The position numbers and the translations under genes are program-made. From positions 1-40,242 of IMG/VR virus record IMGVR_UViG_3300020715_000102: a DNA stretch of 40,242 nucleotides; one strand, given 5' to 3'. The notes beneath the pieces are model-generated. The model did not search any database. It saw only the letters and a list, made by a program, of their open reading frames with translations, and was not told where the DNA came from. This document shows, one piece after another, positions 177 through 29,498 of the stretch (position 1 is its first letter; every line of letters begins with the position of its first letter). Source of the stretch: a virus.

Positions 177-353
177 ATGAATATATATTTTAAATGTGTG
201 TTTTATTTTTTATTATTTTTTGGTGTTGAGGGGTTTTTGTTGCCAAACTTATTCTCTTCAGAATCAGATTATGGTGTGTTACTTGGGTTAATGATCGCTG
301 TATTGTTTATCCCAATTTCTTTTTGGTATATTAAGTGGAGTTTTAAAAAGTGA
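177..353 (+). CDS. Small two-helix membrane protein, unknown
   Basis: This gene encodes 58 residues with two hydrophobic stretches, about residues 4-22 and 32-52, ending in a basic WSFKK tail. It should be an inner-membrane hairpin protein. I chose ATG 177 over an in-frame TTG at 171 because AAAGG at 166-170 is well spaced for the ATG. Its TGA overlaps the GTG start of the SPFH lipoprotein gene (GTGA at 350-353), which implies translational coupling and perhaps a joint membrane role. Function unknown. Confidence 0.6.
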   Translation: MNIYFKCVFYFLLFFGVEGFLLPNLFSSESDYGVLLGLMIAVLFIPISFWYIKWSFKK

Positions 354-1207
354 AACAAATTATAATATTATGTTTAGCGTTATTTCTTGTTGCGTGTTCT
401 GATGTTCCTAATGGCTATGTTGGAATTAAAATAAACAAATTGGGTTCTGATAAAGGTATTGAAAATCAAACCCTTCCTGTTGGTAGGTATTGGTTAACAC
501 CTAATGAACAACTGTTTATTTTTCCAATGTTTACTCAAACACATGTCTGGACTCAAAATGTAACTGAAGGATCTCCTACAGATGAAAGTTTTTCTTTTCA
601 AACTATTGAAGGGATGACTGTTAATACAGATATTGGTATAACATATTCTCTGGACCCAAATAAAGTTTCTATTGTCTTCCAAAAATATCGTAAAGGTATT
701 GATGAAATTACTAGCTCTGTTCTGAGATCTATGGTTAGAGATTCTCTAATTAATGCTGCTTCAACAAAACCTATTGAAACTGTTTATGGATCGGGTAAAG
801 CTTCTCTTATCAAAGAAGTTGAAGATTCTGTTAAAATTCAATGTGTTGAAATTGGGATAAATATTGAACATGTATACTGGGTTGGTGGATTAAGATTGCC
901 TGAATCAATTATTTCTTCTATTAATGCAAAAGCAGCTGCCTCTCAGATGACTGCTCAGAGGGAACAAGAAATCCAACAATCTAAAGCGGAAGCTGATAAG
1001 AAAATCCAAGAAGCTAGAGGTGATGCGGAATCAACTCTTCTGAGAGCAAATGCTGAAGCTCAAGCAATTTTAATTAAAGGTAAAGCTATTTCTGATAATC
1101 CTCAGATTATTGAATTGTCAAAAATTGAAAAATGGAATGGAATTTTACCACAAATCACTGGTAATGCAGGCACTTTAGTCCAGCTAAGTCCAGTTCAGGT
1201 CAAATAA
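350..1207 (+). CDS. SPFH (band 7/prohibitin-like) lipoprotein
   Basis: The protein has 285 residues. The N-terminus is a lipoprotein signal peptide with lipobox LVAC, the acylated Cys being at residue 16, so it should be anchored to a membrane from the periplasmic side. Residues about 20-190 look like an SPFH/band 7 domain: an early 'GYVGIKINKLG', then the 'ITYSLDP' region and 'VRDSLINAAS'. Residues about 190-245 are an Ala/Glu/Lys/Gln-rich coiled coil typical of the stomatin/HflK group, which form ring-shaped assemblies. The start is GTG, overlapping the upstream stop. Known SPFH proteins scaffold membrane microdomains or regulate proteases. The phage role is not known; envelope remodelling or superinfection exclusion would be guesses. 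Confidence 0.85.
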   Translation: MKQIIILCLALFLVACSDVPNGYVGIKINKLGSDKGIENQTLPVGRYWLTPNEQLFIFPMFTQTHVWTQNVTEGSPTDESFSFQTIEGMTVNTDIGITYSLDPNKVSIVFQKYRKGIDEITSSVLRSMVRDSLINAASTKPIETVYGSGKASLIKEVEDSVKIQCVEIGINIEHVYWVGGLRLPESIISSINAKAAASQMTAQREQEIQQSKAEADKKIQEARGDAESTLLRANAEAQAILIKGKAISDNPQIIELSKIEKWNGILPQITGNAGTLVQLSPVQVK

Positions 1208-1241
1208 ATAGATAAAATAAACGAAAAAAGAAAGGATTCAA

Positions 1242-1385
1242 ATGAAATATCAAATAATCTGTGAAGAATGTGACTCTGAATATATTATCTTCTCTGAAGA
1301 TGATCTCTATCAAGATGATCCCTCTTTCTGTGCAATTTGCTCTGAACCTATTTCTCCTGATATTATTGAAGAAGATGAAGAATAA
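1242..1385 (+). CDS. 47-residue zinc-ribbon-like protein
   Basis: This short reading frame begins at ATG 1242 after AAAGGA (about 1230-1236). It contains two CxxC knuckles, CEEC at residues 7-10 and CAIC at 30-33, with an acidic tail ending EEDEE. The four Cys suggest one structural zinc. Such mini zinc ribbons are common in T4-type phages and often bind nucleic acid or proteins, but nothing here fixes the role. It lies 34 bases after the SPFH gene in the same direction. Its stop codon sits inside a 14-base sequence that is repeated 50 bases downstream. Confidence 0.7.
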   Translation: MKYQIICEECDSEYIIFSEDDLYQDDPSFCAICSEPISPDIIEEDEE

Positions 1386-1440
1386 AATCTTCTAATGAAT
1401 TCTAATGAATTCTAATGAATTCTAATGAAGAATAAAATCT
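1377..1440 (+). repeat. Duplicated gene end with TCTAATGAAT decamers
   Basis: The 14-base sequence GAAGAATAAAATCT occurs at 1377-1390, where it carries the stop of the zinc-ribbon gene, and again at 1427-1440. Between and overlapping these are four tandem copies of the decamer TCTAATGAAT (1391-1430, the last ending AAG). The layout suggests slipped-strand or template-switch expansion. Confidence 0.9.
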
Positions 1441-1511
1441 AACCTTCTCCCGAGGTCAGGTAATGGGAGTATTCTCCTAGTCCTTTTGCTGTTTCGACTA
1501 TAACTAAACAG
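1441..1511 (+). other. Possible RNA hairpins in leader region
   Basis: Competing stems are visible: CTCCC at about 1447 with GGGAG at about 1465, and GGAG with CTCC just after it. A separate stem pairs CTGTTT (1489-1494) with AAACAG (1506-1511). They lie between the decamer repeats and the GIY-YIG gene in an otherwise gene-free stretch (1386-1640). They may be transcript structures. No U-run follows, so I do not call a terminator. Confidence 0.3.
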
Positions 1512-1640
1512 TATCCCTCTAAATCTCTCCTCTGAGGCTAAATCTCAACTCTTCTATACCTTTCTCCCTCTACTAATAAATCACCACTCCAATCTCTCCT
1601 AAATATCTCTATCTGAAACTTATATCTCTCTCTCTATCTA

Positions 1641-2084
1641 ATGGAAAATCTAATCCAACCCTCCTGGATCTACCAATCTCTTCCTCTTCTATCTCCTCCT
1701 GAAAATGCTATTGCCTTTGTCTATCTTATCTATAATCCCTCTACTAATAAATCCTATATCGGGAAAAAACAATTCTTCTCGAAAAAAATCTCGCAAAAAT
1801 CTATTACTCAAATTGATGGCTCTAAAATTGTAAAAAAGAAAAAATTGACTGTGGAATCTGATTGGAAATCCTATAATGGCTCTAACTCTTCTCTTATTGA
1901 ACATGCTAAAATACATCTTCTTGAAAAAACAATTCTCCATATCTGCTACTCAAAATCTCATGCTTCCTATCTGGAACTGAAAGAACAAATGTCTAGGGAT
2001 GTTATTCTCTCTTCTCTCTACTATAATGACTGGGTCTCTGCTAAAATTACTAGGAAACATCTGCAAAAATTTCAAAAATTCTGA
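1641..2084 (+). CDS. GIY-YIG endonuclease of the phage Seg-like type
   Basis: The product has 147 residues. The GIY-YIG core is seen as 'FVYLIYNPSTNKSYIGKK' (about residues 26-43), followed by 'SDWKSYNGSNSSL' and 'LELKEQMSRDVIL', a pattern shared by the short putative homing nucleases of T4-type phages. These nucleases cut DNA and drive their own spread. No Shine-Dalgarno sequence precedes ATG 1641; the upstream stretch is an almost pure C/T run. The coding strand is also unusually C+T rich (many TCT, CTC and ATC codons), unlike neighbouring genes, which hints at separate origin. It sits among three tandem-repeat arrays, an expected place for a mobile nuclease gene. Activity is untested. Confidence 0.7.
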   Translation: MENLIQPSWIYQSLPLLSPPENAIAFVYLIYNPSTNKSYIGKKQFFSKKISQKSITQIDGSKIVKKKKLTVESDWKSYNGSNSSLIEHAKIHLLEKTILHICYSKSHASYLELKEQMSRDVILSSLYYNDWVSAKITRKHLQKFQKF

Positions 2085-2094
2085 TTTTTATTGC

Positions 2095-2123
2095 TTGACT
2101 TTTCTATCTTCTTATAGTATAAT
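2095..2123 (+). promoter_or_regulatory. Strong early-type sigma70 promoter facing the repeat array
   Basis: TTGACT at 2095-2100 and TATAAT at 2118-2123 are separated by exactly 17 bases, and TTGC precedes the -35 hexamer as in the minus-strand early promoters of this window (TGCTTGA core). A transcript would start near 2130 and run straight into the 8/12-base array, where there is no long reading frame; the first ATG frame (2130) closes after 18 codons. Confidence 0.75.
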
Positions 2124-2176
2124 ATCTCTATGAATTTGATAATTGTGTCTGTGATAATGGTGTCTTTGTATGATCT

Positions 2177-2624
2177 GAATCTTTGAATCTTTGTTCGAAT
2201 CTTTGAATCTTTGTTCGAATCTTCGAATCTTTGAATCTTTGTTTGAATCTTTGTTCGAATCTTTGAATCTTTGTTCGAATCTTCGAATCTTTGTTCGAAT
2301 CTTTGAATCTTTGAATCTTTGAATCTTTGTTCGAATCTTTGTTCGAATCTTTGAATCTTTGTTCGAATCTTTGTTCGAATCTTTGAATCTTTGTTCGAAT
2401 CTTTGTTCGAATCTTTGTTCGAATCTTCGAATCTTCGAATCTTCGAATCTTTGAATCTTTGTTCGAATCTTTGTTCGAATCTTTGAATCTTTGTTCGAAT
2501 CTTTGAATCTTTGAATCTTTGTTCGAATCTTTGAATCTTTGAATCTTTGTTCGAATCTTTGAATCTTTGAATCTTTGTTCGAATCTTTGAATCTTTGTTC
2601 GAATCTTTGTTCGAATCTTTGTTC
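2177..2624 (+). repeat. Array of 45 mixed 8- and 12-base repeats
   Basis: The 448 bases parse completely into 45 units with nothing left over. There are 23 eight-mers (GAATCTTT, or GAATCTTC five times) and 22 twelve-mers (GAATCTTTGTTC, with one GTTT variant). The order is irregular, so it is not a simple higher-order repeat. Unit lengths of 8 shift the reading frame and bring in TGA stops, so it is non-coding. The array is downstream of the promoter at 2095 and upstream of a TATAAATA octamer at 2648. Possible roles are a replication origin, a protein-binding array or a non-coding transcript. Confidence 0.95.
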
Positions 2625-2647
2625 GAGAAAATATTAATTAAAGAAAT

Positions 2648-2655
2648 TATAAATA
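2648..2655 (+). promoter_or_regulatory. TATAAATA late-promoter octamer between arrays
   Basis: An exact T4-type late-promoter -10 octamer. The only plus-strand gene downstream is at 3157, so a transcript from here would carry about 490 bases of leader containing the decamer array. In such AT-rich DNA it could be coincidental. Confidence 0.4.
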
Positions 2656-2680
2656 GGTCTAAGTCAACTAAGAACTATTT

Positions 2681-2920
2681 ACAGTTATTTACAGTTATTT
2701 ACAGTTAATTACAGTTAATTACAGTTATTTACAGTTAATTACAGTTAATTACAGTTAATTACAGTTAATTGCAGTTAGATCCAGCTATTTACAGTTAATT
2801 GCAGTTAGACCCAGCTATTTACAGTTAATTACAGTTAGATCCAGCTAATTACAGATATTTACAGCTAATTACAGTTAATTACAGTTAGATCCAGATATTT
2901 ACAGATAGATTCAGATAAAT
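2681..2920 (+). repeat. 24 tandem decamers in helical phase
   Basis: Twenty-four consecutive 10-base units, typically ACAGTTAATT or ACAGTTATTT, with variants such as GCAGTTAGAT, CCAGCTATTT and ACAGATATTT. CAG recurs every 10 bases with AATT or ATTT on the same helix face, a pattern expected to give intrinsic curvature. All three frames contain stops, so it is non-coding. The last units are more diverged than the first. Confidence 0.95.
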
Positions 2921-3022
2921 ACGATGTTATCTTTCTCTAATATATAAAGAGTAATTGGTATTTATTCAGGTTAAATCAAGAAAAGAACAATTGCGGGACA
3001 ATTTCCGTTAAAAGATATTAGA

Positions 3023-3120
3023 ATACTAGATATAGTGTTTGTGCACTAGATATAGTATTTTATTTTAGGCAATACTATATGTAGTAGTAGACCCTTAGGG
3101 GTAGATACTAGATGTAGTAG
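3023..3120 (+). promoter_or_regulatory. Four imperfect dyad sites, ACTA-N4-TAGT
   Basis: Four 16-base boxes share a dyad core: 3023-3038, 3043-3058, 3072-3087 and 3105-3120. Each has ACTA, four bases, then TAGT. The first two are 20 bases apart (two helical turns). By eye they resemble the published NrdR-box consensus, but no nrd gene is visible here. They lie between the decamer array and the gene at 3157, so they may be its operator or part of an origin. Confidence 0.5.
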
Positions 3121-3156
3121 TAATTTATAAAAACATTCAGAAAAAGGTGAAAAATT

Positions 3157-3384
3157 ATGGCAGAACAAGAGATTAAAACAGAAGAAGCGACAATCACATT
3201 CCGAGGAAAGGAATATTTTGTGAAGGATTTAAGCCCCGAAGCAAACAGATACGTTGAGCAGATATTAGATTTAGAGAAGAAGATCAGAAGTACAGGATTA
3301 GATTTAGAGCAGTATCATTTCGCCAACGAGTATTTCAACGAGATGTTATTCAGAGCATTAGAGCCAGTAGAAGAAGAAGAGTAG
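3157..3384 (+). CDS. Small phage protein resembling DUF6447
   Basis: The product has 75 residues. Its pattern, a short strand with 'FRGKEYFVKDLSPEANRYVEQIL' features and then a helix carrying the conserved 'LDLEKKI' stretch, resembles the small DUF6447 proteins of marine and freshwater phages; function is not established. The C-terminus is acidic (EPVEEEE). A good Shine-Dalgarno AAAAAGGTGA lies 7-8 bases before ATG 3157. A TATAAAAA octamer (3126-3133), one base off the late consensus, could be its promoter. It is monocistronic, followed by a clear terminator, and sits beside the repeat region. Confidence 0.6.
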   Translation: MAEQEIKTEEATITFRGKEYFVKDLSPEANRYVEQILDLEKKIRSTGLDLEQYHFANEYFNEMLFRALEPVEEEE

Positions 3385-3396
3385 AAGAGAGAGAGA

Positions 3397-3425
3397 GGGG
3401 AGTTATAGAGACTCCCCTTTTTTTT
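3397..3425 (+). terminator. Rho-independent terminator after the 3157 gene
   Basis: A 7-bp stem GGGGAGT / ACTCCCC (3397-3403 with 3411-3417) and a 7-base loop are followed by eight Ts (3418-3425). The minus strand has no T-run, so it acts on plus-strand transcripts only. It separates the converging gene at 3424-3909. Confidence 0.9.
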
Positions 3426-3909
3426 ATTGTTGATTAGTTTTATAGAGAAAGCTCCTAGATAGAGATTCCCCATTAGATTTAGTAACTTGATTAGTCAATT
3501 CAAATTGAGTAATCGAGGAGTCGAAGGGACCGATATTAGTAGCAGTTTTAGCACCACTAGAACCAGAAGACTGTATATTCACATTAGCAGAAGCAGACCA
3601 AGTTGACAGAGTAATAGATTGATATGGGAGAAGCCATAGATCCCAAGGAGTTGCAGTAAACACCGCAGTACCAGAAGTAGTATCCCCTTGATTCCAAGTA
3701 GGTTCAACCGAGCCAGAGACCCCATTAGTAGTACAGATATAGTAATAGCCATTATCTACAGAAGGACGAACAACATCATCCAGACGATAGACAGCATTTG
3801 GCACAACTGTTTGCGCACCCCAGAAAACAGATACAATAGTAGTATCATCAGGATCAACAAACCCAGATATTTTCAGAGGACCTTTTTGGTTAGGAGAATA
3901 TGTTTGCAT
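3424..3909 (-). CDS. Tail-associated protein with CBM-like module
   Basis: The product has 161 residues. Residues about 30-90 carry a motif common in phage tail proteins and carbohydrate-binding-like modules: 'YRLDDVVRPSVDNGYYYICT', then 'GVSGSVEPTW' and a closing 'GTAVFTA'. The C-terminal part is Ser/Thr-rich beta sequence. It starts 4 bases after the stop of the 1154-residue repeat protein, with GGAA just before its ATG, so the two are one minus-strand operon and probably part of the same fibre or baseplate appendage. Binding target unknown. Confidence 0.65.
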   Translation of the reverse strand: MQTYSPNQKGPLKISGFVDPDDTTIVSVFWGAQTVVPNAVYRLDDVVRPSVDNGYYYICTTNGVSGSVEPTWNQGDTTSGTAVFTATPWDLWLLPYQSITLSTWSASANVNIQSSGSSGAKTATNIGPFDSSITQFELTNQVTKSNGESLSRSFLYKTNQQ

Positions 3910-3913
3910 AGAA

Positions 3914-6900
3914 TTATTCCAATTTAATTAGTATGTTATTATCAGGTTGTTTAATAAGATACTTATTATCCCCTTCTAGGATTTTAACAGAGGTATCTAA
4001 AGGTTTAATCAAGTAAGTATAATCAGGAGCTTTAATTAATATTCTGTGAGTATTACCATAAATAAGAGTAACTAGAGCTACTGGAAATACATTACAAATA
4101 GCAGAGATATTACCTGCCAAAAGAATATTTGTTCTTAGATTCGATGTAGCTGTAGAAACTGCAGCTACATTAGAAGCTAATTGTATACTTGTTATTAAAT
4201 TAATTGGCCTAATAGTAGAAACTGCAGCTACATTAGAAGCTAATTGTATACTTGTTATTAAATTAATTGGCCTAATAGTAGAGAATACAGATACAATTGA
4301 TGCAAGTTGTATACTTGTATATAGAGTAGCATTAGTCGATACAACACAAAGATCAACAGAAGCAAGTTGAATATTTGTATGTAGATTAGCATTAGTCGAT
4401 ACAACAGAAGTAACAATAGAAGCTAATTGTATACTTGTGTGTAAAGTGGCATTAGTTGATACAACACATAGATCAACAGAAGCAAGTTGAATATTTGTAT
4501 GTAGATTAGCATTAGTCGATACAACAGAAGTAACAATAGAAGCTAATTGTATACTTGTGTGTAAAGTGGCATTAGTCGATACAACACATAAATCAATAGA
4601 AGCTAATTGAATATTTGTTCTTAGATTCGATGTAGCTGTAGAAACAACAGTTACATTTGATGTTAGTTCTATGCTTGTATGTAGAGTAGCATTAGTCGAT
4701 ACAATACATAAATCAACAGAAGTTAGTTGAATGTTTGTATTTAAATTAATTGGACTAATTGATACAACAGATGCTAAAGTATTTGATGCAAGTTGTATAC
4801 TTGTATGTAGAGTAGCATTAGTAGATACAACACACAGATCAATAGAAGCTAGTTGTATGTTTGTATTTAGATTCGATGTAGCTGTAGAAACTGTAGATAC
4901 ATTAGAAGCTAATTGTATGTTTGTATTTAAATCAATTGGGTTAATTGATACGACAGATGCTAAAGTATTTGATGCTAATACAATATTTGTATTTAACGAA
5001 GCATTAGTCGATACAACACACAGATCAACAGAAGCTAGTTGTATGTTTGTATTTAAATCAGCAGGGCTAATAGATACAACAGAAGAAATATTTGATGCTA
5101 ATACAATATTTGTATTTAACGAAGCATTTGTCGCTACAACACACAGATCAACAGAAGCTAGTTGTATAGCAGTTGTTAGGCTAGAAGAAGCAGTAGAAAC
5201 AACAGATACATTAGAAGCCAGTTTGATATTTGTGTTAAGAACAGCATTAGTTGATACAACACATAAATCAACAGAAGCTAGTTGTATAGCAGTTGTTAGA
5301 TTAGAAGAAGCAGTAGAAACAACAGATACATTAGAAGCTAGTTTGATATTTGTGTTAAGAACAGCATTAGTTGATACAACACACAGATCAACAGAAGCTA
5401 GTTGTATAGCAGTTGTTAGGCTAGAAGAAGCAGTAGAAACAACAGATACATTAGAAGCTAGTTGGATGTTTGTATTTAAATTAACAGAAGTAACAGATAC
5501 AACAGATGTTAAGATATTTGATGCTAATGTAATATATGTTCTTAAATCAATTGGACTAATTGATACGACAGATGCTAAAGTATTTGATGCTAATGTGATA
5601 TTTGTTCTTAACGAAGCATTAGTCGATACAACACACAGATCAACAGAAGCTAGTTGGATGTTTGTATTTAAATTAACAGAAGTAACAGATACAACAGATG
5701 TTAAGATATTTGATGCTAATACAATATTTGTATTTAACGAAGCATTAGTCGATACAACACACAGATCAACAGAAGCTAGTTGGATGTTTGTATTTAAATT
5801 AACAGAAGTAACAGATACAACAGATGTTAAGATATTTGATGCTAATACAATATTTGTATTTAACGAAGCATTTGTCGCTACAACACACAGATCAACAGAA
5901 GCTAGTTGTATGTTTGTATTTAAATCAGCAGGGCTAATAGATACAACAGAAGAAATATTTGATGCTAATACAATATTTGTATTTAACGAAGCATTTGTCG
6001 CTACAACACACAGATCAACAGAAGTTAGTTGTATAGCAGTTGTTAGGCTAGAAGAAGCAGTAGAAACAACAGATACATTAGAAGCTAGTTGGATAGCATT
6101 TGTAAGATTCGATGTAGCTGTAGAAACAACAGAAGCAACAATAGATGCTAATGTATTATTTGTATTAAGAACAGCATTAGTTGATACAACACATAAATCA
6201 ACAGAAGCTAGTTGTATAGCAGTTGTTAGATTCGATGTAGCTGTAGAAACAACAGAAGCAACAATAGATGCTAATGTATTATTTGTATTAAGAACAGCAT
6301 TAGTCGATACAACACACAGATCAACAGAAGCTAGTTGTATAGCAGTTGTTAGGCTAGAAGAAGCAGTAGAAACAACAGATACATTAGAAGCTAGTTGGAT
6401 AGCATTTGTAAGATTCGATGTAGCTGTAGAAACAACAGATACATTAGAAGCCAGTTTGATATTTGTATTAAGAACAGCATTAGTCGATACAACACACAGA
6501 TCAACAGAAGCTAGTTGTATAGCAGTTGTTAGGCTAGAAGAAGCAGTAGAAACAACAGATACATTAGAAGCTAGTTGGATAGCATTTGTAAGATTCGATG
6601 TAGCTGTAGAAACAACAGATACATTAGAAGCCAGTTTGATATTTGTGTTAAGAACAGCATTAGTCGATACAACACACAGATCAACAGAAGCTAGTTGTAT
6701 AGCAGTTGTTAGATTAGAAGAAGCAGTAGAAACAGAAGAAATATTTGATGCTAATTGGATAGCATTTGTAAGATTCGATGTAGCTGTAGAAACAACAGAA
6801 GTAACAATAGAAGCTAATTGTATACTTGTATTAAGAACAGCATTAGTCGATACAACACATAAATCAACAGAAGCTAGTTGTATAGCAGTTGTTAGATTAG

Positions 6901-7378
6901 AAGAAGCAGTAGAAACAGAAGAAATATTTGATGCTAATTGGATAGCATTTGTAAAAGAAGCAGAAACAATAGTTGATACTGATGCTACACTTGAATTTAT
7001 TTTTATCGTTGTCGCTAACGAAGCACCAGATACAGCTAATGATGATGTAGAAGCAGCAAGAAAAATTTGTGTATTTAGTGTTATTGTTCCTACAACACTA
7101 ATTGTATTCGCTGTTCCGAATAGTGTTATGTAAGTTGTTAAATTTGATGTAGTAACAGATGTTATACATGTTACTGTAGAATTTAACGAAATTCCAGTTA
7201 TTAAATTGATAGAAGATGCAACAGCAACACATTTAGGTGCTGTTGTGCATAATATTTGTGTTGTAACATTTGATGATGTTGTAGAAACAACAAATACAGA
7301 TGCGCTTAATTGAGCAGCAGATTTTGCTGTTCCTGATGAAGATATTGGATTTGAACTTATCGGGAAAAACCCTAACAT
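3914..7378 (-). CDS. 1154-residue repetitive fibre-like protein
   Basis: Almost the whole protein (about residues 20-1090) is tandem repeats of about 20 residues. Each is Ser/Thr/Val/Asn-rich and built around 'IQLAS', 'VDLCVVSTNA' and 'NVSVVSTASS' blocks. It ends in a non-repetitive Lys/Leu tail with 'YLIKPLD' and 'YLIKQPD'. Alternating hydrophobic and small polar residues suggest a beta-solenoid or trimeric shaft, as in tail fibres. The 'VDLCVVST' block brings a Cys into many repeats, unusual for an extracellular fibre. DNA-level tandems of 180 bases (for example near 6299, 6479 and 6659) show recent expansion. ATG 7378 is preceded by AGAGAG. The antisense open frame (4731-7133) is a by-product of the repeats. 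Confidence 0.75.
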   Translation of the reverse strand: MLGFFPISSNPISSSGTAKSAAQLSASVFVVSTTSSNVTTQILCTTAPKCVAVASSINLITGISLNSTVTCITSVTTSNLTTYITLFGTANTISVVGTITLNTQIFLAASTSSLAVSGASLATTIKINSSVASVSTIVSASFTNAIQLASNISSVSTASSNLTTAIQLASVDLCVVSTNAVLNTSIQLASIVTSVVSTATSNLTNAIQLASNISSVSTASSNLTTAIQLASVDLCVVSTNAVLNTNIKLASNVSVVSTATSNLTNAIQLASNVSVVSTASSSLTTAIQLASVDLCVVSTNAVLNTNIKLASNVSVVSTATSNLTNAIQLASNVSVVSTASSSLTTAIQLASVDLCVVSTNAVLNTNNTLASIVASVVSTATSNLTTAIQLASVDLCVVSTNAVLNTNNTLASIVASVVSTATSNLTNAIQLASNVSVVSTASSSLTTAIQLTSVDLCVVATNASLNTNIVLASNISSVVSISPADLNTNIQLASVDLCVVATNASLNTNIVLASNILTSVVSVTSVNLNTNIQLASVDLCVVSTNASLNTNIVLASNILTSVVSVTSVNLNTNIQLASVDLCVVSTNASLRTNITLASNTLASVVSISPIDLRTYITLASNILTSVVSVTSVNLNTNIQLASNVSVVSTASSSLTTAIQLASVDLCVVSTNAVLNTNIKLASNVSVVSTASSNLTTAIQLASVDLCVVSTNAVLNTNIKLASNVSVVSTASSSLTTAIQLASVDLCVVATNASLNTNIVLASNISSVVSISPADLNTNIQLASVDLCVVSTNASLNTNIVLASNTLASVVSINPIDLNTNIQLASNVSTVSTATSNLNTNIQLASIDLCVVSTNATLHTSIQLASNTLASVVSISPINLNTNIQLTSVDLCIVSTNATLHTSIELTSNVTVVSTATSNLRTNIQLASIDLCVVSTNATLHTSIQLASIVTSVVSTNANLHTNIQLASVDLCVVSTNATLHTSIQLASIVTSVVSTNANLHTNIQLASVDLCVVSTNATLYTSIQLASIVSVFSTIRPINLITSIQLASNVAAVSTIRPINLITSIQLASNVAAVSTATSNLRTNILLAGNISAICNVFPVALVTLIYGNTHRILIKAPDYTYLIKPLDTSVKILEGDNKYLIKQPDNNILIKLE

Positions 7379-7509: not shown

Positions 7510-9714
7510 ATGACGTTATTAATAAAAGATAGAGTCAAGGAAATATCAACTACTGTTGGGGTAGGACCTATATTAGTAGGGACAACTCCAGTTGTAGGTT
7601 TTACTACTATTGATGCAGCAATAGCGAATGGCAATACAACTCCCTATGTTATAGAACATCAATCTGATGGATCTTACGAAATTGGTGTGGGTCAATATTA
7701 TTCTTCAAATACATCATTAGTAAGACTTCAAGTTTTAGCATCAAACAATTCAAATCAATTAGTTTCTTTTGCTGCTGGAAATAAAAATATTTTTGTAACT
7801 ATTCCAGCTGCATATTCTGCTATGGTGGTCAGAGATTTAAGTCAATTTGCTGTTACAACTTCTGCAAATTTGGCAAGTATTATTTCTGATGAAACGGGAG
7901 TTGGTCCTTTAGTTTTTGCAAATAATGCTACATTATTTAATCCCACGATTACTGGTAATACAGCACAATTTACAGATACAACGAACGCAACAAACTATTC
8001 AACTGCTCCTGCAACATTTTCTGGTGGTGTTGGTGTTGCGAAAGATGTTTATGTTGGTGGAACATTATCAGTTTCTGGAAATGTTTATATTAATGGTAAT
8101 ACAATATCAATTAGCGCAAATAACTTAGAGATTAATGACTCTTTAATTTATATGGCTCAAGGAAATCCTGCTAATTTAAATGATATTGGAATAGTTGGTC
8201 ATTTTAATAATGGAACTTATCAACATACTGGATTAGTTAGAGATCATAGTGATGGTGTTTGGAAATTATTTTCTGGAGTAACCACAGAACCAACAGGAAA
8301 TATAATAAGTCTTTCTAGTGCAACATATGATACGTTAAAGGTTGGATCTATTATTTCCAATACTTTCACATCTTTAATCACAACTGGCGTTGCTCCATTA
8401 GTAATAAATTCTACAACTCCTGTTGCTAATTTAAGCATTTATGCTAATAATATATCAGGATCAATTGTTAATAGTTCTTTGGCTAATACCTCAGTTACAA
8501 TCAATACCGGTGCTGGGTTGTCTGGTGGTGGTTCTGTTGCCTTGGGTTCTTCTGTTTCTGTAAGTGCTAATACTGGGAACACAACACAAGCAGGAATTGT
8601 TCAGTTAAATGATAGTGTAATTTCTATTAGCACTGTATTAGCAGCCACTGCCAATGCTGTTTATACTGCATATAATTTTGCAGTAACTGCAAATACTAAT
8701 GCTGCTAATGCTTCATATTTAACAACTGGAACAGTTCCTAATGTTAGATTGTCTTCTATTCCAAATAGTTCATTAGCAAATAATTCTATTACAATAGGAT
8801 CAACAGTTATACAATTAGGAAGTTCAAATACAACACTTTCTGGTTTAAATTTATTATCAAGTAATACATTTATAGCTAACAATGGATTCTATTCTTCTAA
8901 TAATTATACTGGATCTTATTCACATGGCATAGTCGTTGATTATGTGCCTGGAACTGGTAGGATTTCTGTTGGTTCTGCTGATGGAATTACAATTTATAAT
9001 GGCGGAGTTGGAACAACTCCATTAGTATCTGTTACTGCTGGTGGTGTCGTTACATCAAATGTTTATACATCTTCAGCTGTTACAGGTATTGCCCCATTAG
9101 TAATAAATTCTACAACTCCTGTTGCAAATTTAACTGCAAATCTAGCATTAGGTGTTGCTGGTGGTTCAGCGAATAATCTTTTATATCAAACAGCTGCTAA
9201 TATTACAAGTTATATAACAGCACCAGCAGCAAACAATACCTATTTAAAATGGAATACAGCTGGTGGATTTTCTTGGGCTACTGTTACAGGTGGCGGAGGT
9301 TTGACAACAACTGATGATAATGCAACAAATGCAACGTATTATCCAGTTTTTGTTACTGCAGCTGGTGGGAGCACTGCTAAAACAGCATCAACTGATTTGA
9401 CATTTAATCCATCATCTGGAACATTATCTGCCACCTTATTCCAATCATTATCAGATAAATCTAAGAAAATAAATATTATTGGAATTTCTGGTGCGATAAA
9501 TACAGTTAAAAAATTAAATGGTGTAGAATTTGATTGGATAGATAATGGATTTCATTCTTCAGGTGTTATTGCGCAAGAAATAGAACAAATATTACCACAT
9601 TTAGTACAAGAAACTGATGGAATAAAGAGCGTGAATTATTCAGGTTTGATTGGATATTTAATCGAAGCAATAAAAGATTTATCAGATAAGATTGATAATT
9701 TGGAGAACAAATAA
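7510..9714 (+). CDS. Tail fibre with S74 intramolecular chaperone
   Basis: The product has 734 residues. The N-terminal region (about 1-110) looks like a virion-attachment segment, followed by Gly/Ser/Asn/Thr-rich beta-structured shaft sequence with repeated 'ITTGVAPLVINSTTPVANL'-type blocks (near residues 295 and 530). The C-terminus (about 645-734) is an S74/endosialidase-type chaperone: 'SDKSKKINI', 'LNGVEFDWI', 'HSSGVIAQEIEQILPHLV' and a final coiled helix. This module trimerises the fibre and usually cleaves itself off at a Ser near its start. The gene follows a late promoter and has a weak Shine-Dalgarno (AGGG about 13 bases upstream). It is a likely receptor-binding or side-fibre protein. 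Confidence 0.9.
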   Translation: MTLLIKDRVKEISTTVGVGPILVGTTPVVGFTTIDAAIANGNTTPYVIEHQSDGSYEIGVGQYYSSNTSLVRLQVLASNNSNQLVSFAAGNKNIFVTIPAAYSAMVVRDLSQFAVTTSANLASIISDETGVGPLVFANNATLFNPTITGNTAQFTDTTNATNYSTAPATFSGGVGVAKDVYVGGTLSVSGNVYINGNTISISANNLEINDSLIYMAQGNPANLNDIGIVGHFNNGTYQHTGLVRDHSDGVWKLFSGVTTEPTGNIISLSSATYDTLKVGSIISNTFTSLITTGVAPLVINSTTPVANLSIYANNISGSIVNSSLANTSVTINTGAGLSGGGSVALGSSVSVSANTGNTTQAGIVQLNDSVISISTVLAATANAVYTAYNFAVTANTNAANASYLTTGTVPNVRLSSIPNSSLANNSITIGSTVIQLGSSNTTLSGLNLLSSNTFIANNGFYSSNNYTGSYSHGIVVDYVPGTGRISVGSADGITIYNGGVGTTPLVSVTAGGVVTSNVYTSSAVTGIAPLVINSTTPVANLTANLALGVAGGSANNLLYQTAANITSYITAPAANNTYLKWNTAGGFSWATVTGGGGLTTTDDNATNATYYPVFVTAAGGSTAKTASTDLTFNPSSGTLSATLFQSLSDKSKKINIIGISGAINTVKKLNGVEFDWIDNGFHSSGVIAQEIEQILPHLVQETDGIKSVNYSGLIGYLIEAIKDLSDKIDNLENK

Positions 9715-10895
9715 TGTCAAGTTTTAGTTCACCAGCGACTGGCGATTTTGACAAATATTTTATGACTACAACTGATTTAATTGATCGGTTTGCAGTAGGC
9801 GGGTTATGGGTTTGTGGTTATAATGGTTATGGAGAACTTGGCGATAGTACCATAACAAATAAAAGTTCTCCAGTTCAGACCATAGCAGGTGGAACAAATT
9901 GGAAACAAGTTGCTACTGGTTATTATCATACCGCAGCAATCAAGACCGATGGTACATTATGGACTTGTGGTTATAATGGTACTGGACAACTTGGCGATAG
10001 TACCACCGTTACTGGTAGAAGTTCTCCAGTTCAAACCATAGCAGGTGGAACAAATTGGAAACAGGTTGCTTGTAGTTTTGATCATACCGCAGCAATCAAG
10101 ACCGATGGTACATTATGGGGATGGGGTAGAAATTCTTATGGAGGGCTTGGCGATAGTACCGTTACAAATAAAAGTTCTCCAGTTCAAACCATAACAGGTG
10201 GAACAAATTGGAAACAAGTTGCTTGTGGAACTTATCATACCGCAGCAATCAAGACCGATGGTACATTATGGACTTGGGGTTATAATGTTACTGGACAACT
10301 TGGCGATAGTACCAATACAAATAAAAGTTCTCCAGTTCAGACCATAGCAGGTGGAACAAATTGGAAACAAGTTGCTGGTGGTTTTTATCATACCGCAGCA
10401 ATCAAGACCGATGGTACATTATGGACTTGGGGTAGAAATTCTTATGGAGGGCTTGGCGATAGTACCACCGTTACAAATAGAAGTTCTCCAGTTCAAACCA
10501 TAGCAGGTGGAACAAATTGGAAACAGGTTGCTTGTGGTTATTATAGTACCGCAGCAATCAAGACCGATGGTACATTATGGACTTGGGGTAGAAATTCTTA
10601 TGGAGAACTTGGCGATAGTACCATAACAAATAAAAGTTCTCCAGTTCAGACCATAGCAGGTGGAACAAATTGGAAACAGGTTGCTAGCGGATCTTTTCAT
10701 ACCGCAGCAATCAAGACCAATGGTACATTATGGACTTGTGGTTATAATGGTAGTGGACAACTTGGCGATAGTACCAATACAAGTAAAAGTTCTCCAGTTC
10801 AGACCATAACAGGTGGAACAAATTGGAAACAAGTTGCTGGTAGTCAATATCATACCGCAGCAATACAATATTCAGATATAGGACAGGTATTATAA
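9714..10895 (+). CDS. RCC1-repeat seven-bladed propeller protein 1
   Basis: The product has 393 residues. After a 30-residue unique N-terminus come seven tandem RCC1-type repeats of 51-52 residues (nt 9804 onward), the number needed to close a seven-bladed beta-propeller. Each blade has the frame LWxxGxNxxGxLGD, then SPVQTI, GGTNWKQVA, then HTAAIKTDGT. Only about ten positions vary from blade to blade, and framework DNA is nearly identical across all 21 blades of the three RCC1 genes here. The start overlaps the stop of the S74 fibre gene, so it belongs to that late operon and is most likely a virion surface or receptor-binding protein, not a GTPase exchange factor. The unique N-terminus probably docks it to the virion. 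Confidence 0.85.
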   Translation: MSSFSSPATGDFDKYFMTTTDLIDRFAVGGLWVCGYNGYGELGDSTITNKSSPVQTIAGGTNWKQVATGYYHTAAIKTDGTLWTCGYNGTGQLGDSTTVTGRSSPVQTIAGGTNWKQVACSFDHTAAIKTDGTLWGWGRNSYGGLGDSTVTNKSSPVQTITGGTNWKQVACGTYHTAAIKTDGTLWTWGYNVTGQLGDSTNTNKSSPVQTIAGGTNWKQVAGGFYHTAAIKTDGTLWTWGRNSYGGLGDSTTVTNRSSPVQTIAGGTNWKQVACGYYSTAAIKTDGTLWTWGRNSYGELGDSTITNKSSPVQTIAGGTNWKQVASGSFHTAAIKTNGTLWTCGYNGSGQLGDSTNTSKSSPVQTITGGTNWKQVAGSQYHTAAIQYSDIGQVL

Positions 10896-10896
10896 T

Positions 10897-11589
10897 ATGT
10901 TTTTAGTAATAGAAAAAACTCAAGATGGAATGGACTTTGTTCATTTAGGGCCAATGAATTGGAGACCGAGATTATTTCAATCTGTTATAACAGATGATTT
11001 AGAAATTGATTTTACAATACCATTATCTAATGATAACAATGAACCAATAATTATAAATGATATTGCTAGAATTATTCCAGTAACTGATGTCGGTGTAACT
11101 GGATCTTATAATCCTAAAATACAACAATTGGTTGGTCCATATTATAATTTTTTTGAAACATATGCTGAACATTATCAAAAGGTTGAAGATAAACCACTTG
11201 ATGTTATTAGATCAGAATTAAAACGTGTCATTGCTTCTAATAGATATCGATATGAAATTATGGGTACTGCTGTTACTATTCAAAATCAAACTATAAATGT
11301 TCTTACTACAAGAGAAGATCGTGGATTATATCTACAAGCATATCAACTTGGTAAAGATGAAGTAAATTGGAAATTTGGTGATATATTCCTAATCTTATCA
11401 AATTCTGATTTAGGTATTATTGTGAATGCTGTTGCAAATCATGTTCAATCTGCATTTGATTGGGAAAATCGAAAAAATATAGAAATTGATTCTGCTACAA
11501 CATTGGAAGATTTGGATTATATCAAATTAATTTCTGATGATCCAGCATGGGAGCCAGCTGTTGAACAAGTTGATGTTGGAATTAAATAA
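10897..11589 (+). CDS. DUF4376-type tail-fibre-associated protein
   Basis: The product has 230 residues. The C-terminal half (about 100-220) matches the general DUF4376 pattern: 'IRSELKRVIASNRYRYEIMG', a short strand repeat, a Trp-containing 'NWKFGD' turn and then helices with 'LEDLDYI'. DUF4376 is found in phage tail and fibre-assembly proteins. The N-terminal half is beta-rich and unrecognised. It begins 1 base after the first RCC1 gene's stop and its TAA overlaps the next RCC1 gene's ATG, so it is made together with them and may be an assembly factor or adaptor. Confidence 0.6.
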   Translation: MFLVIEKTQDGMDFVHLGPMNWRPRLFQSVITDDLEIDFTIPLSNDNNEPIIINDIARIIPVTDVGVTGSYNPKIQQLVGPYYNFFETYAEHYQKVEDKPLDVIRSELKRVIASNRYRYEIMGTAVTIQNQTINVLTTREDRGLYLQAYQLGKDEVNWKFGDIFLILSNSDLGIIVNAVANHVQSAFDWENRKNIEIDSATTLEDLDYIKLISDDPAWEPAVEQVDVGIK

Positions 11590-12821
11590 TGGCATCATCC
11601 AATAATCAATTCACAAGTAACTTTCAAGAGAGTTCGGCTGAAAATAATGTCGATCTTGGTGTAAAATATGTAACTAAAAGTTATTTGATGGATGTTTATC
11701 CATATTTGACTGGTATGGGTAATATTGAATTTCCTGGGTTATGGTTATGGGGTTATAATGTATATGGAGAACTTGGCGATAGTACCGTTACAAATAAAAG
11801 TTCTCCAGTTCAAACCATAGCAGGTGGAACAAATTGGAAACAAGTTGCTGGTGGTTTTTATCATACCGCAGCAATCAAGACCGATGGTACATTATGGACT
11901 TGGGGTTATAATTCTTATGGAGGGCTTGGCGATAGTACCATAACAAATAAAAATTCCCCAGTTCAGACCATAGCAGGTGGAACAAATTGGAAACAGGTTG
12001 CTGGTGGTTATTTTCATACCGCAGCAATCAAGACCGATGGTACATTATGGACTTGTGGTTATAATTTTTATGGAGAACTTGGCGATAGTACCATAACAAA
12101 TAAAAGTTCCCCAGTTCAGACCATAACAGGTGGAACAAATTGGAAACAAGTTGCTACTGGTTATTTTCATACCGCAGCAATCAAGACCGATGGTACATTA
12201 TGGTTATGGGGTTATAATTTGGATGGAGAACTTGGCGATAGTACCACCGTTACTGGTAGAAGTTCTCCAGTTCAAACCATAGCAGGTGGAACAAATTGGA
12301 AACAGGTTGCTTGTAGTTTTGATCATACCGCAGCAATCAAGACCGATGGTACTTTATGGACTTGGGGTTATAATGGTTATGGAGGGCTTGGCGATAGTAC
12401 CGTTACAAATAAAAGTTCTCCAGTTCAAACCATAACAGGTGGAACAAATTGGAAACAAGTTGCTTGTGGAACTTATCATACCGCAGCAATCAAGACCGAT
12501 GGTACATTATGGACTTGGGGTTATAATGTTACTGGACAACTTGGCGATAGTACCATAACAAATAAAAATTCCCCAGTTCAAACCATAGCAGGTGGAACAA
12601 ATTGGAAACAGGTTGCTTGTGGTTATTATAGTACCGCAGCAATCAAGACCGATGGTACATTATGGGGATGGGGTAGAAATTCTTATGGAGGGCTTGGCGA
12701 TAGTACCGTTACAAATAAAAGTTCTCCAGTTCAGACCATAGCAGGTGGAACAAATTGGAAACAAGTTGCTACTGGTTATTATCATACCGCAGCAATAAAA
12801 GAAATGGGAGATGATTTTTGA
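11589..12821 (+). CDS. RCC1-repeat seven-bladed propeller protein 2
   Basis: The product has 410 residues: a 50-residue unique N-terminus unlike those of the other two RCC1 proteins, then seven RCC1 blades from nt 11739. Blades 4-6 match blades 2-4 of protein 1 almost base for base, except for a patch of about 30 bases (near 12353-12385 versus 10110-10142) where the YN turn differs. That is the signature of gene conversion. The last blade ends in an acidic EMGDDF tail. The gene overlaps the DUF4376 gene upstream and the cupin-like gene downstream by 1-4 bases. It is likely a second fibre-tip variant presented on a different attachment domain. Confidence 0.85.
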   Translation: MASSNNQFTSNFQESSAENNVDLGVKYVTKSYLMDVYPYLTGMGNIEFPGLWLWGYNVYGELGDSTVTNKSSPVQTIAGGTNWKQVAGGFYHTAAIKTDGTLWTWGYNSYGGLGDSTITNKNSPVQTIAGGTNWKQVAGGYFHTAAIKTDGTLWTCGYNFYGELGDSTITNKSSPVQTITGGTNWKQVATGYFHTAAIKTDGTLWLWGYNLDGELGDSTTVTGRSSPVQTIAGGTNWKQVACSFDHTAAIKTDGTLWTWGYNGYGGLGDSTVTNKSSPVQTITGGTNWKQVACGTYHTAAIKTDGTLWTWGYNVTGQLGDSTITNKNSPVQTIAGGTNWKQVACGYYSTAAIKTDGTLWGWGRNSYGGLGDSTVTNKSSPVQTIAGGTNWKQVATGYYHTAAIKEMGDDF

Positions 12822-13303
12822 TTAAATTATTGCAAGCTGATAACTTTTTCAAAGATGAAGATGTTCAAATCATGTTTAATGCTACAAATAATTTACAATT
12901 TGTAGAAAAAGAACATGGATTAGAAATTGAAAATTTTAATATGGTCATTCCAGATTTAGATCAAATATTTTCAAAATTATTAGCAGAAGAAGTTACAGTA
13001 GATGAAGAAAATTCTGGAATTTTTAGAAAACCAAATCAAAATATACATTTTGAAACTTTTACATCATTATCAGATTGGGTTTTTATTGTTGCATTACAAT
13101 TTACATCATTTACACTTTATCATCATTTAGATGGACCAAAAACTGCATTAGACGAATATAGATTAAATTATAAAGATTTTATGAAATGGGATTGTCATAC
13201 TAATATATTCTTACAACCAAATGAAGGTATAATTTTTAGACCTTGGTTATTCCATGCGTTAGATCCCGGATTGATTCAATTGTATAAGTTGAAAGGAAAA
13301 TAA
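12818..13303 (+). CDS. Cupin/2OG-oxygenase-like protein between RCC1 genes
   Basis: The product has 161 residues. The second half looks like a double-stranded beta-helix: 'FTLYHHLDG' (about residues 102-110) gives an H-x-D-like pair, and 'GIIFRPWLFHAL' (about 137-148) matches the distal His strand of small 2-oxoglutarate/Fe(II) oxygenases in cyanophages. The start codon is TTG or ATG inside the end of RCC1 gene 2, and the next RCC1 gene starts 1 base after its stop. Placement between two RCC1 genes suggests it acts on those proteins, for example hydroxylating side chains. The family call is tentative; a non-catalytic cupin is possible. Confidence 0.45.
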   Translation: MIKLLQADNFFKDEDVQIMFNATNNLQFVEKEHGLEIENFNMVIPDLDQIFSKLLAEEVTVDEENSGIFRKPNQNIHFETFTSLSDWVFIVALQFTSFTLYHHLDGPKTALDEYRLNYKDFMKWDCHTNIFLQPNEGIIFRPWLFHALDPGLIQLYKLKGK

Positions 13304-13304
13304 A

Positions 13305-14471
13305 ATGGCACAAACTGGATTTATAGTTAGTACATCAGATGGTGGTGGAGCAGATATTGGCGATTTATTAGTTGCTAGAGATATCTTTTCAGAAGGCGGG
13401 TTATGGACTTGGGGTTATAATTTTTATGGAGGGCTTGGCGATAATACCGTTACAAATAAAAGTTCCCCAGTTCAGACCATAACAGGTGGAACAAATTGGA
13501 AACAGGTTGCTGGTGGAACTCTTCATACCGCAGCAATCAAGACCGATGGTACATTATGGACTTGGGGTGATAATGAATATGGAGAACTTGGCGATAATAC
13601 CGTTACAAATAAAAGTTCCCCAGTTCAGACCATAACAGGTGGAACAAATTGGAAACAGGTTGCTGGCGGATCTTTTCATACCGCAGCAATCAAGACCGAT
13701 GGTACTTTATGGACTTGGGGTTATAATGGTAATGGAGGGCTTGGCGATAGTACCGTTACAAATAAAAGTTCTCCAGTTCAGACCATTGCTGGTGGAACAA
13801 ATTGGAAACAAGTTGCTGGTGGTTATTTTCATACCGCAGCAATCAAGACCGATGGTACATTATGGACTTGTGGTTATAATTCTTATGGACAACTTGGCGA
13901 TAGTACCATAACAAATAAAAGTTCTCCAGTTCAGACCATAACAGGTGGAACAAATTGGAAACAAGTTGCTTGTGGTTATTTTCATACCGCAGCAATCAAG
14001 ACCGATGGTACATTATGGACTTGTGGTTATAATGGTTATGGACAACTTGGCGATAGTACCATAACAAATAAAAGTTCTCCAGTTCAAACCATAACAGGTG
14101 GAACAAATTGGAAACAAGTTGCTTGTGGTTATTTTCATACCGCAGTAATCAAGACCGATGGTACATTATGGTTATGGGGTTATAATTTGGATGGACAACT
14201 TGGCGATAGTACCATAACAAATAAAAGTTCTCCAGTTCAGACCATAGCAGGTGGAACAAATTGGAAACAGGTTGCTGGCGGATCTGATCATACCGCAGCA
14301 ATCAAGACCGATGGAACATTATGGACTTGTGGTTATAATGGTAATGGAGGGCTTGGCGATAGTACCGTTACAAATAAAAGTTCTCCAGTTCAGACCATTG
14401 CTGGTGGAACAAATTGGAAACAAGTTGCTGGTGGAACTCTTCATACCGCAGCAATAAAAGACGATATGTAA
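13305..14471 (+). CDS. RCC1-repeat seven-bladed propeller protein 3
   Basis: The product has 388 residues: a 32-residue unique N-terminus, then seven RCC1 blades from nt 13401. Its first two blades carry GDN instead of GDS and share the TVTNKSS loop. Blades 3 and 7 are near-identical at the GNGG turn. It ends 'HTAAIKDDM'. AAAGGAAAATAAA before ATG 13305 is a good ribosome site. It is the last gene of the late operon that begins with the S74 fibre; the next gene has its own late promoter at 14497. Likely a third version of the same receptor-binding propeller. Confidence 0.85.
   Translation: MAQTGFIVSTSDGGGADIGDLLVARDIFSEGGLWTWGYNFYGGLGDNTVTNKSSPVQTITGGTNWKQVAGGTLHTAAIKTDGTLWTWGDNEYGELGDNTVTNKSSPVQTITGGTNWKQVAGGSFHTAAIKTDGTLWTWGYNGNGGLGDSTVTNKSSPVQTIAGGTNWKQVAGGYFHTAAIKTDGTLWTCGYNSYGQLGDSTITNKSSPVQTITGGTNWKQVACGYFHTAAIKTDGTLWTCGYNGYGQLGDSTITNKSSPVQTITGGTNWKQVACGYFHTAVIKTDGTLWLWGYNLDGQLGDSTITNKSSPVQTIAGGTNWKQVAGGSDHTAAIKTDGTLWTCGYNGNGGLGDSTVTNKSSPVQTIAGGTNWKQVAGGTLHTAAIKDDM

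Positions 14472-27875: not shown

Positions 27876-29498
<1,623 letters not shown>

Follow-up and report, generated by a model that had tools for sequence, protein, structure and literature searches.

In bacteriophage T4, oriE requires an early promoter and contains 12-nt direct repeats of ill-defined role, oriF and oriG combine a promoter with an AT-rich unwinding element, and three T4 origins lie near switches of strand and composition (PMC3016281). Short repeats are also found in the Borg elements of Methanoperedens, where recently formed head-to-tail repeats occur both between and within genes, vary in unit number within populations and show a strand-biased composition (PMC9879509), and in iteron origins of the plasmid type and of the V. 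cholerae PLE satellite, where short repeated DNA lies in non-coding sequence near operons (PMC7145576). Bacterial VNTR loci, finally, change copy number between strains that are a handful of SNPs apart. Here we describe a locus of an uncultured phage that shares individual traits with each of these systems.

The window analysed, an IMG/VR virus record, spans 40,242 bp and was joined with two other records (G001 and G006) into a merged map of 83.9 kb; the genome is incomplete. Parts of this phage are also present, at 99-100% identity, in several further viral contigs. T4-type late promoters, the primase and the ligase suggest a T4-like phage, and its ligase and SPFH proteins share less than 60% identity with every entry in the phage collection. 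Among annotated phages, no DNA match to positions 1200-3450 was found. The repeat island follows the genes for thymidylate synthase, MazG, primase, NrdB and NrdA and precedes a block of tail-fibre and repeat-protein genes. In the 63.7 kb scanned, non-coding DNA totals 3.7 kb, and the gap of about 1 kb at the island makes up more than a quarter of it. The features of the island and its flanks are listed in Table 1. Elsewhere in the window, the phage encodes a GroEL (27876-29486; PHROG 5725, E 1e-182), and at 9714-14471 three genes, built of near-identical RCC1-type repeats of 153 nt and separated by small tail-fibre-like or unassigned genes, form an arrangement that resembles a duplicated cassette. 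In contig L009 (280-860), NrdA carries an apparent intein-like insertion with a stop codon inside (split or decayed).

Table 1 Features of the repeat island and its flanks. Positions are those of the window; L013 and L014 are related viral contigs.
Feature	Position	Strand	Basis or remark
10-mer AGTCCAGNTN x2, 3' end of SPFH gene	1177-1196	+	one extra copy in L013 and L014
Array TTCTAATGAA x4	1390-1429	+	x2 in L013 and L014
SegE-like GIY-YIG endonuclease gene, inverted CT/AG composition	1641-2084	+	Pfam SegE_GIY-YIG, E 1e-24
Early sigma70-type promoter TTGACT-N17-TATAAT, TAG before -10 box	2095-2123	+	11/12 consensus match
Predicted 18-codon ORF MNLIIVSVIMVSLYDLNL, starting at the expected +1, possibly leaderless	2130-2186	+	sequence
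15-mer tandem repeat, 2 copies	2137-2165	+	4 copies in L014
Array 1: 45 abutting units of 8 or 12 nt	2177-2624	+	unit parse; 13 units in L014
AT-rich spacer, 51 bp, 22% GC, hinge of AG/CT switch	2625-2675		between arrays 1 and 2
T4-type late promoter TATAAATA	2648-2655	+	octamer match
Array 2: degenerate 10-mers of ATTTACAGTTA / AGATCCAGCTA type	2676-2920	+	repeat scan
75-aa ORF, first gene after both promoters	3157-3384	+	PHROG 21153, E 4e-9; Pfam DUF6447 below cutoff
Intrinsic terminator, 16-pair stem and T run	3389-3425	+	sequence
Two convergent genes (161 aa and 1154-aa repeat protein), AG-rich hinge side	3424-7378	-	codon-controlled z

As proposed in an earlier sequence-only reading, array 1 parses perfectly into 23 eight-mers and 22 twelve-mers with zero remainder (23 x 8 + 22 x 12 = 448 nt), and their irregular order is indistinguishable from a shuffled one. 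The eight-mers comprise 18 copies of GAATCTTT and five of GAATCTTC, the twelve-mers 21 copies of GAATCTTTGTTC and one of GAATCTTTGTTT, and the array is T-rich on the top strand. Duplication of TTTG in the 8-mer would give GAATCTTTGTTT (present once in the array of the window and twice in that of L014), which one T-to-C change would turn into the 12-mer, and loss of 4 nt from the 12-mer would in turn yield GAATCTTC; slippage and one substitution would suffice for all unit variants. The absence of a gene holds for ORFs of at least 50 aa, none of which lies between 2084 and 3157 or runs through array 1 in any frame with ATG, GTG or TTG starts, but not for the 18-codon ORF, whose frame is kept in L014 despite four instead of two copies of its internal 15-mer. 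Two candidate identities of the repeat word were rejected. Every unit contains GAATC, yet GANTC is not depleted elsewhere (191 sites seen, 160 expected), as would be expected for a GANTC (CcrM/HinfI) decoy, and GTTCGAATC is T-loop-like, but its flanks are by inspection unable to pair as a T-stem and no tRNA was found.

Array 1 shares a stretch of 1.75 kb (1177 to 2920) with four other short tandem repeats, which, like the late promoter and the compositional hinge, are missing from the sequence-only reading. Four of the five repeats, namely array 1, TTCTAATGAA, the 15-mer and the 10-mer in the SPFH gene, differ between the window and L014 (45 vs 13 units, 4 vs 2 copies, 2 vs 4 copies and one extra copy, respectively), at about six SNPs in 2 kb. 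Two of these changes (TTCTAATGAA x2 and the extra SPFH 10-mer) are also present in L013, and array 2 is found in L014 as well, where it is cut off by the contig end. A second assembly (L009), which is possibly not an independent sample, is identical over 6,005 bp, array 1 included. The predicted length variation among relatives was thus observed, and the absence of the array from all close relatives, which had been named as a refutation, does not hold. Repeat copy number turns over far faster than point mutation at this locus, which is, given four repeats differing at so few point differences, a fast-slipping VNTR island. Unlike bacterial VNTR loci, it resides in a phage and is tied to a promoter and a hinge of strand composition. 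The island is absent from L015 and L016 (SPFH identity 77% and 74%), and the exact array 1 repeat was found in two other viral contigs only and in zero prokaryote genomes. Loci of SegE homologs contain no comparable array; L066 alone has a 40-nt array of 8-mers. Since none of the more distant relatives examined has the arrays, they are not generally required. Borg units are uniform, A-biased per replichore and distributed genome-wide, whereas two unit lengths are mixed here and the non-coding arrays are confined to 1.75 kb; with its mixed 8/12 units, T-rich top strand and single locus, the island does not belong to this repeat class.

These observations may be explained by a functionless minisatellite island, in which short tandem duplications, tolerated in the non-coding gap that separates blocks of genes, expand by slippage and unequal recombination, while the promoter merely yields a long leader for the 75-aa gene. 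We consider this possible, if somewhat improbable. It would account for the clustering of five short arrays, four of them with altered copy number, for the random unit order, for unit variants explained by one duplication, one substitution and 4-nt deletions, and for the absence of arrays in more distant relatives. It leaves unexplained the retention of both promoter motifs and the unique compositional hinge at the arrays, which reaches conserved genes at the codon level (see below).

The promoter upstream of array 1 is the best-scoring site within 9 kb and, with its -35 box TTGACT, of the sigma70 early type. The merged map contains five sites of the family TTGACA-N14-TAG-TATAAT, with a spacing of 17 or 18 bp. 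Four of these are located 35-56 bp upstream of genes, the primase gene among them, and the fifth is the promoter of array 1, which is followed by 1,042 nt without a gene. Its assignment to the early-gene promoters is borne out by the near-consensus match and by the TAG common to the four gene-proximal sites. The octamer TATAAATA in the spacer also occurs 29-74 bp upstream of the late genes at 7510, 14532, 26496, 22692 and 22128.

A dedicated early promoter with 1 kb of gene-free sequence behind it, together with a terminator after the 75-aa gene and none between array and gene, would fit a regulatory leader of about 1 kb or a separate abundant RNA, the repeats of which would tune expression of the 75-aa gene or act as binding sites for a host or phage factor. 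The predicted fold of array 1 RNA is also more stable for the + strand (-107.9) than for the - strand (-67.1), via TTYGAA junctions. Compared to dinucleotide shuffles, the + strand RNA reached a z of -4.3, a null that is unsuited to repeats. However, an equally good fold is reached by 28% of random-unit arrays, and no Rfam family matched, which argues against the structured form of the abundant repetitive RNA put forward initially. Moreover, the drop from 45 to 13 units shows no visible constraint, and the late promoter could serve the 75-aa gene without array 1. A leader or RNA function appears quite unlikely to us.

The most pronounced signal at the locus is a strand switch in AG/CT composition, with a score of 227 at 2592. 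Masking of the arrays reduced it to only 221, which rules out the array words as the sole source of the hinge, and moved the change point between 2617 and 2948. Across about 0.89 Mb from eight other T4-like genomes or contigs, T4 among them, the largest switch scores 73. The imprint is local, extends over approximately 0.35-7.4 kb (350-7378) and flips at about 2620. On the top strand, TCT occurs nearly without AGA between roughly 1.2 and 2.6 kb (up to 40:0 per 400 bp), and AGA nearly without TCT between roughly 2.8 and 7 kb (up to 35:0); these windows are the extremes of the entire 83.9-kb map. On the strands pointing outward from the hinge, the AG dinucleotide reaches 1.88 (left) and 1.70 (right) times its expectation and CT 0.43 and 0.52 times, with about 0.9 for both in the rest, and G exceeds C.

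To separate this bias from coding content, synonymous codons were resampled from the phage's own usage. Under this control, the genes on the left retained z values of +3.9 (SPFH), +4.7 (CxxC ORF) and +9.2 (SegE), those on the right -3.4 (75 aa), -7.3 (161 aa) and -7.2 (1154 aa), and none of the other genes tested exceeded 3. The sign is set by the side and not by the coding strand, as the 75-aa gene (+) and the 161-aa gene (-) are both AG-rich on top. Non-coding DNA behaves likewise (AG-CT per 100 nt of -13.7 left and +5.9 right), and the SegE-like gene has a CT-AG value of +13.5 per 100 nt, compared to -1.99 (sd 1.22) in 25 homologs. A high content of serine in the encoded proteins as the source of the TCT/AGA bias is partly true for the 1154-aa gene, but the codon-controlled z remains large. 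The 1154-aa protein (3914-7378), within which contig L009 stops, is Ser/Thr/Val-rich, consists of 20-21-aa repeats without a family match and is probably a surface fibre. The SegE-like gene has no visible Shine-Dalgarno sequence (1600-1641), unlike the 75-aa gene at 3157, because the stretch upstream of it is free of AG. Taken together, the data indicate that a strand-discriminating process operates outward (or inward) from the hinge. We know of no obvious cause of such a polarity.

One conceivable process is transcript termination. The SegE transcript and that of the 1154/161-aa genes converge, resemble Rho-binding RNA in being CU-rich and G-poor, and could end around the arrays, which would then lie in a termination or anti-collision zone. 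Inward RNAs are indeed CU-rich on both sides, and the left + strand RNA has a C content of 0.27 and a G content of 0.07-0.10 at 1401-1800. Rho prefers YC dimers, however, and here the skew is stronger for the CT context than for TC, and the inward strands show no enrichment of CC. The bias also spans 3.5 kb of coding sequence, far beyond the need of a rut site, and the + strand must be read through up to 3425. We regard this explanation as very improbable.

We tentatively prefer, at a confidence that stays short of probable, the reading that the locus is a DNA-level replication-initiation zone of the phage, the repeats of which expand by slippage. This reading is favoured as the AG/CT switch has its centre at the locus and is unmatched in the T4-like DNA compared, and as initiation fits the geometry, the melting behaviour of the spacer, the early promoter and the placement between DNA-metabolism and late genes, and would explain repeat turnover as a side effect. 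In ease of melting, the spacer ranks with the top 0.8% of 100-bp windows. Of the AG/CT switches in T4, the largest is at 116.0 kb, some 0.7 kb away from oriF (115.3 kb). The likeness to the T4 origins would consist in promoter-linked initiation near strand and composition switches; the loci have no sequence relation.

In the R-loop origins oriF and oriG, a middle-mode (MotA-type) promoter is followed by an AT-rich unwinding element at which the R-loop forms. Here an early promoter is present, and the easily melted spacer lies 500 nt downstream of it, while the array next to the promoter is not easily melted. An early promoter and 12-mers, as in oriE, are also present; oriE has repEA/repEB nearby, and no ORF of at least 50 aa was found in the island. 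The sole direct-repeat family of more than two copies that we found near T4 oriE has a 24-nt period in the coding sequence of gene 5 (L134, 3403-3570), and the iterons published for oriE may have arisen as a by-product of this protein repeat. As the oriE repeats found are coding and array 1 is free-standing and abutting, equating the two is unjustified. Known iterons are few and bound by Rep, whereas array 1 has 45 abutting, freely varying units, and annotation of the window and its left flank, in this incomplete genome, revealed no Rep-family initiator.

Several results speak against the initiation zone. The sequence-only reading had likened the locus to T4 origins, which combine a promoter with an easily unwound region, but array 1 is harder to melt than the average of the genome (67% of windows are easier to melt) and is ruled out as a melting element. 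The origin proposal receives indirect support from the hinge, the spacer and the location, but third-position GC skew over 64 kb shows no origin-like switch; genome-wide GC skew was discarded as a signal since it tracks gene orientation only. There is one DnaA box match of the TTWTNCACA type at 7244 and none near the array, and no strong leftward promoter was found near the hinge. Finally, the imprint is local, unlike ordinary replication skew, and stronger than any origin skew known to us, which is the reason for our restrained confidence. We know of no precedent for so strong and dinucleotide-specific a local imprint at an origin.

If replication starts here, the zone would consist of the early promoter, the 8/12 array, the AT-rich spacer with the late promoter and the 10-mer array, the 10-nt unit of which corresponds to about one helical turn. 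Host polymerase would initiate near 2130 and transcribe rightward, the duplex would open at the spacer, and forks would depart both ways. Repeated starts, pauses and recombination would cause the flanking arrays to slip and shift in copy number, and the same activity would leave the strand-composition imprint that flips at the zone. The replication start, its priming by the promoter, bidirectionality and replication as the source of the imprint are all what we infer. As the unit order is random and the length changes freely, we favour the 8/12 units as a by-product or loose binding sites rather than a precise machine.

It may further be speculated, although we consider it rather doubtful, that the island represents a new architecture of phage initiation zones, in which an early promoter is combined with a mixed-length iteron-like array, an AT-rich spacer that holds a late promoter, and another array with units of 10 nt, and the activity of which imprints an extreme AG/CT polarity over several kb on both sides, synonymous sites in both orientations included. 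To our knowledge, the origins of most T4-like phages other than T4 are unmapped. The island offers a concrete place to test where replication of an uncultured phage starts and whether initiation drives the birth of tandem repeats. Apart from this, the polarity represents a positional force able to rewrite synonymous codons in adjacent genes.
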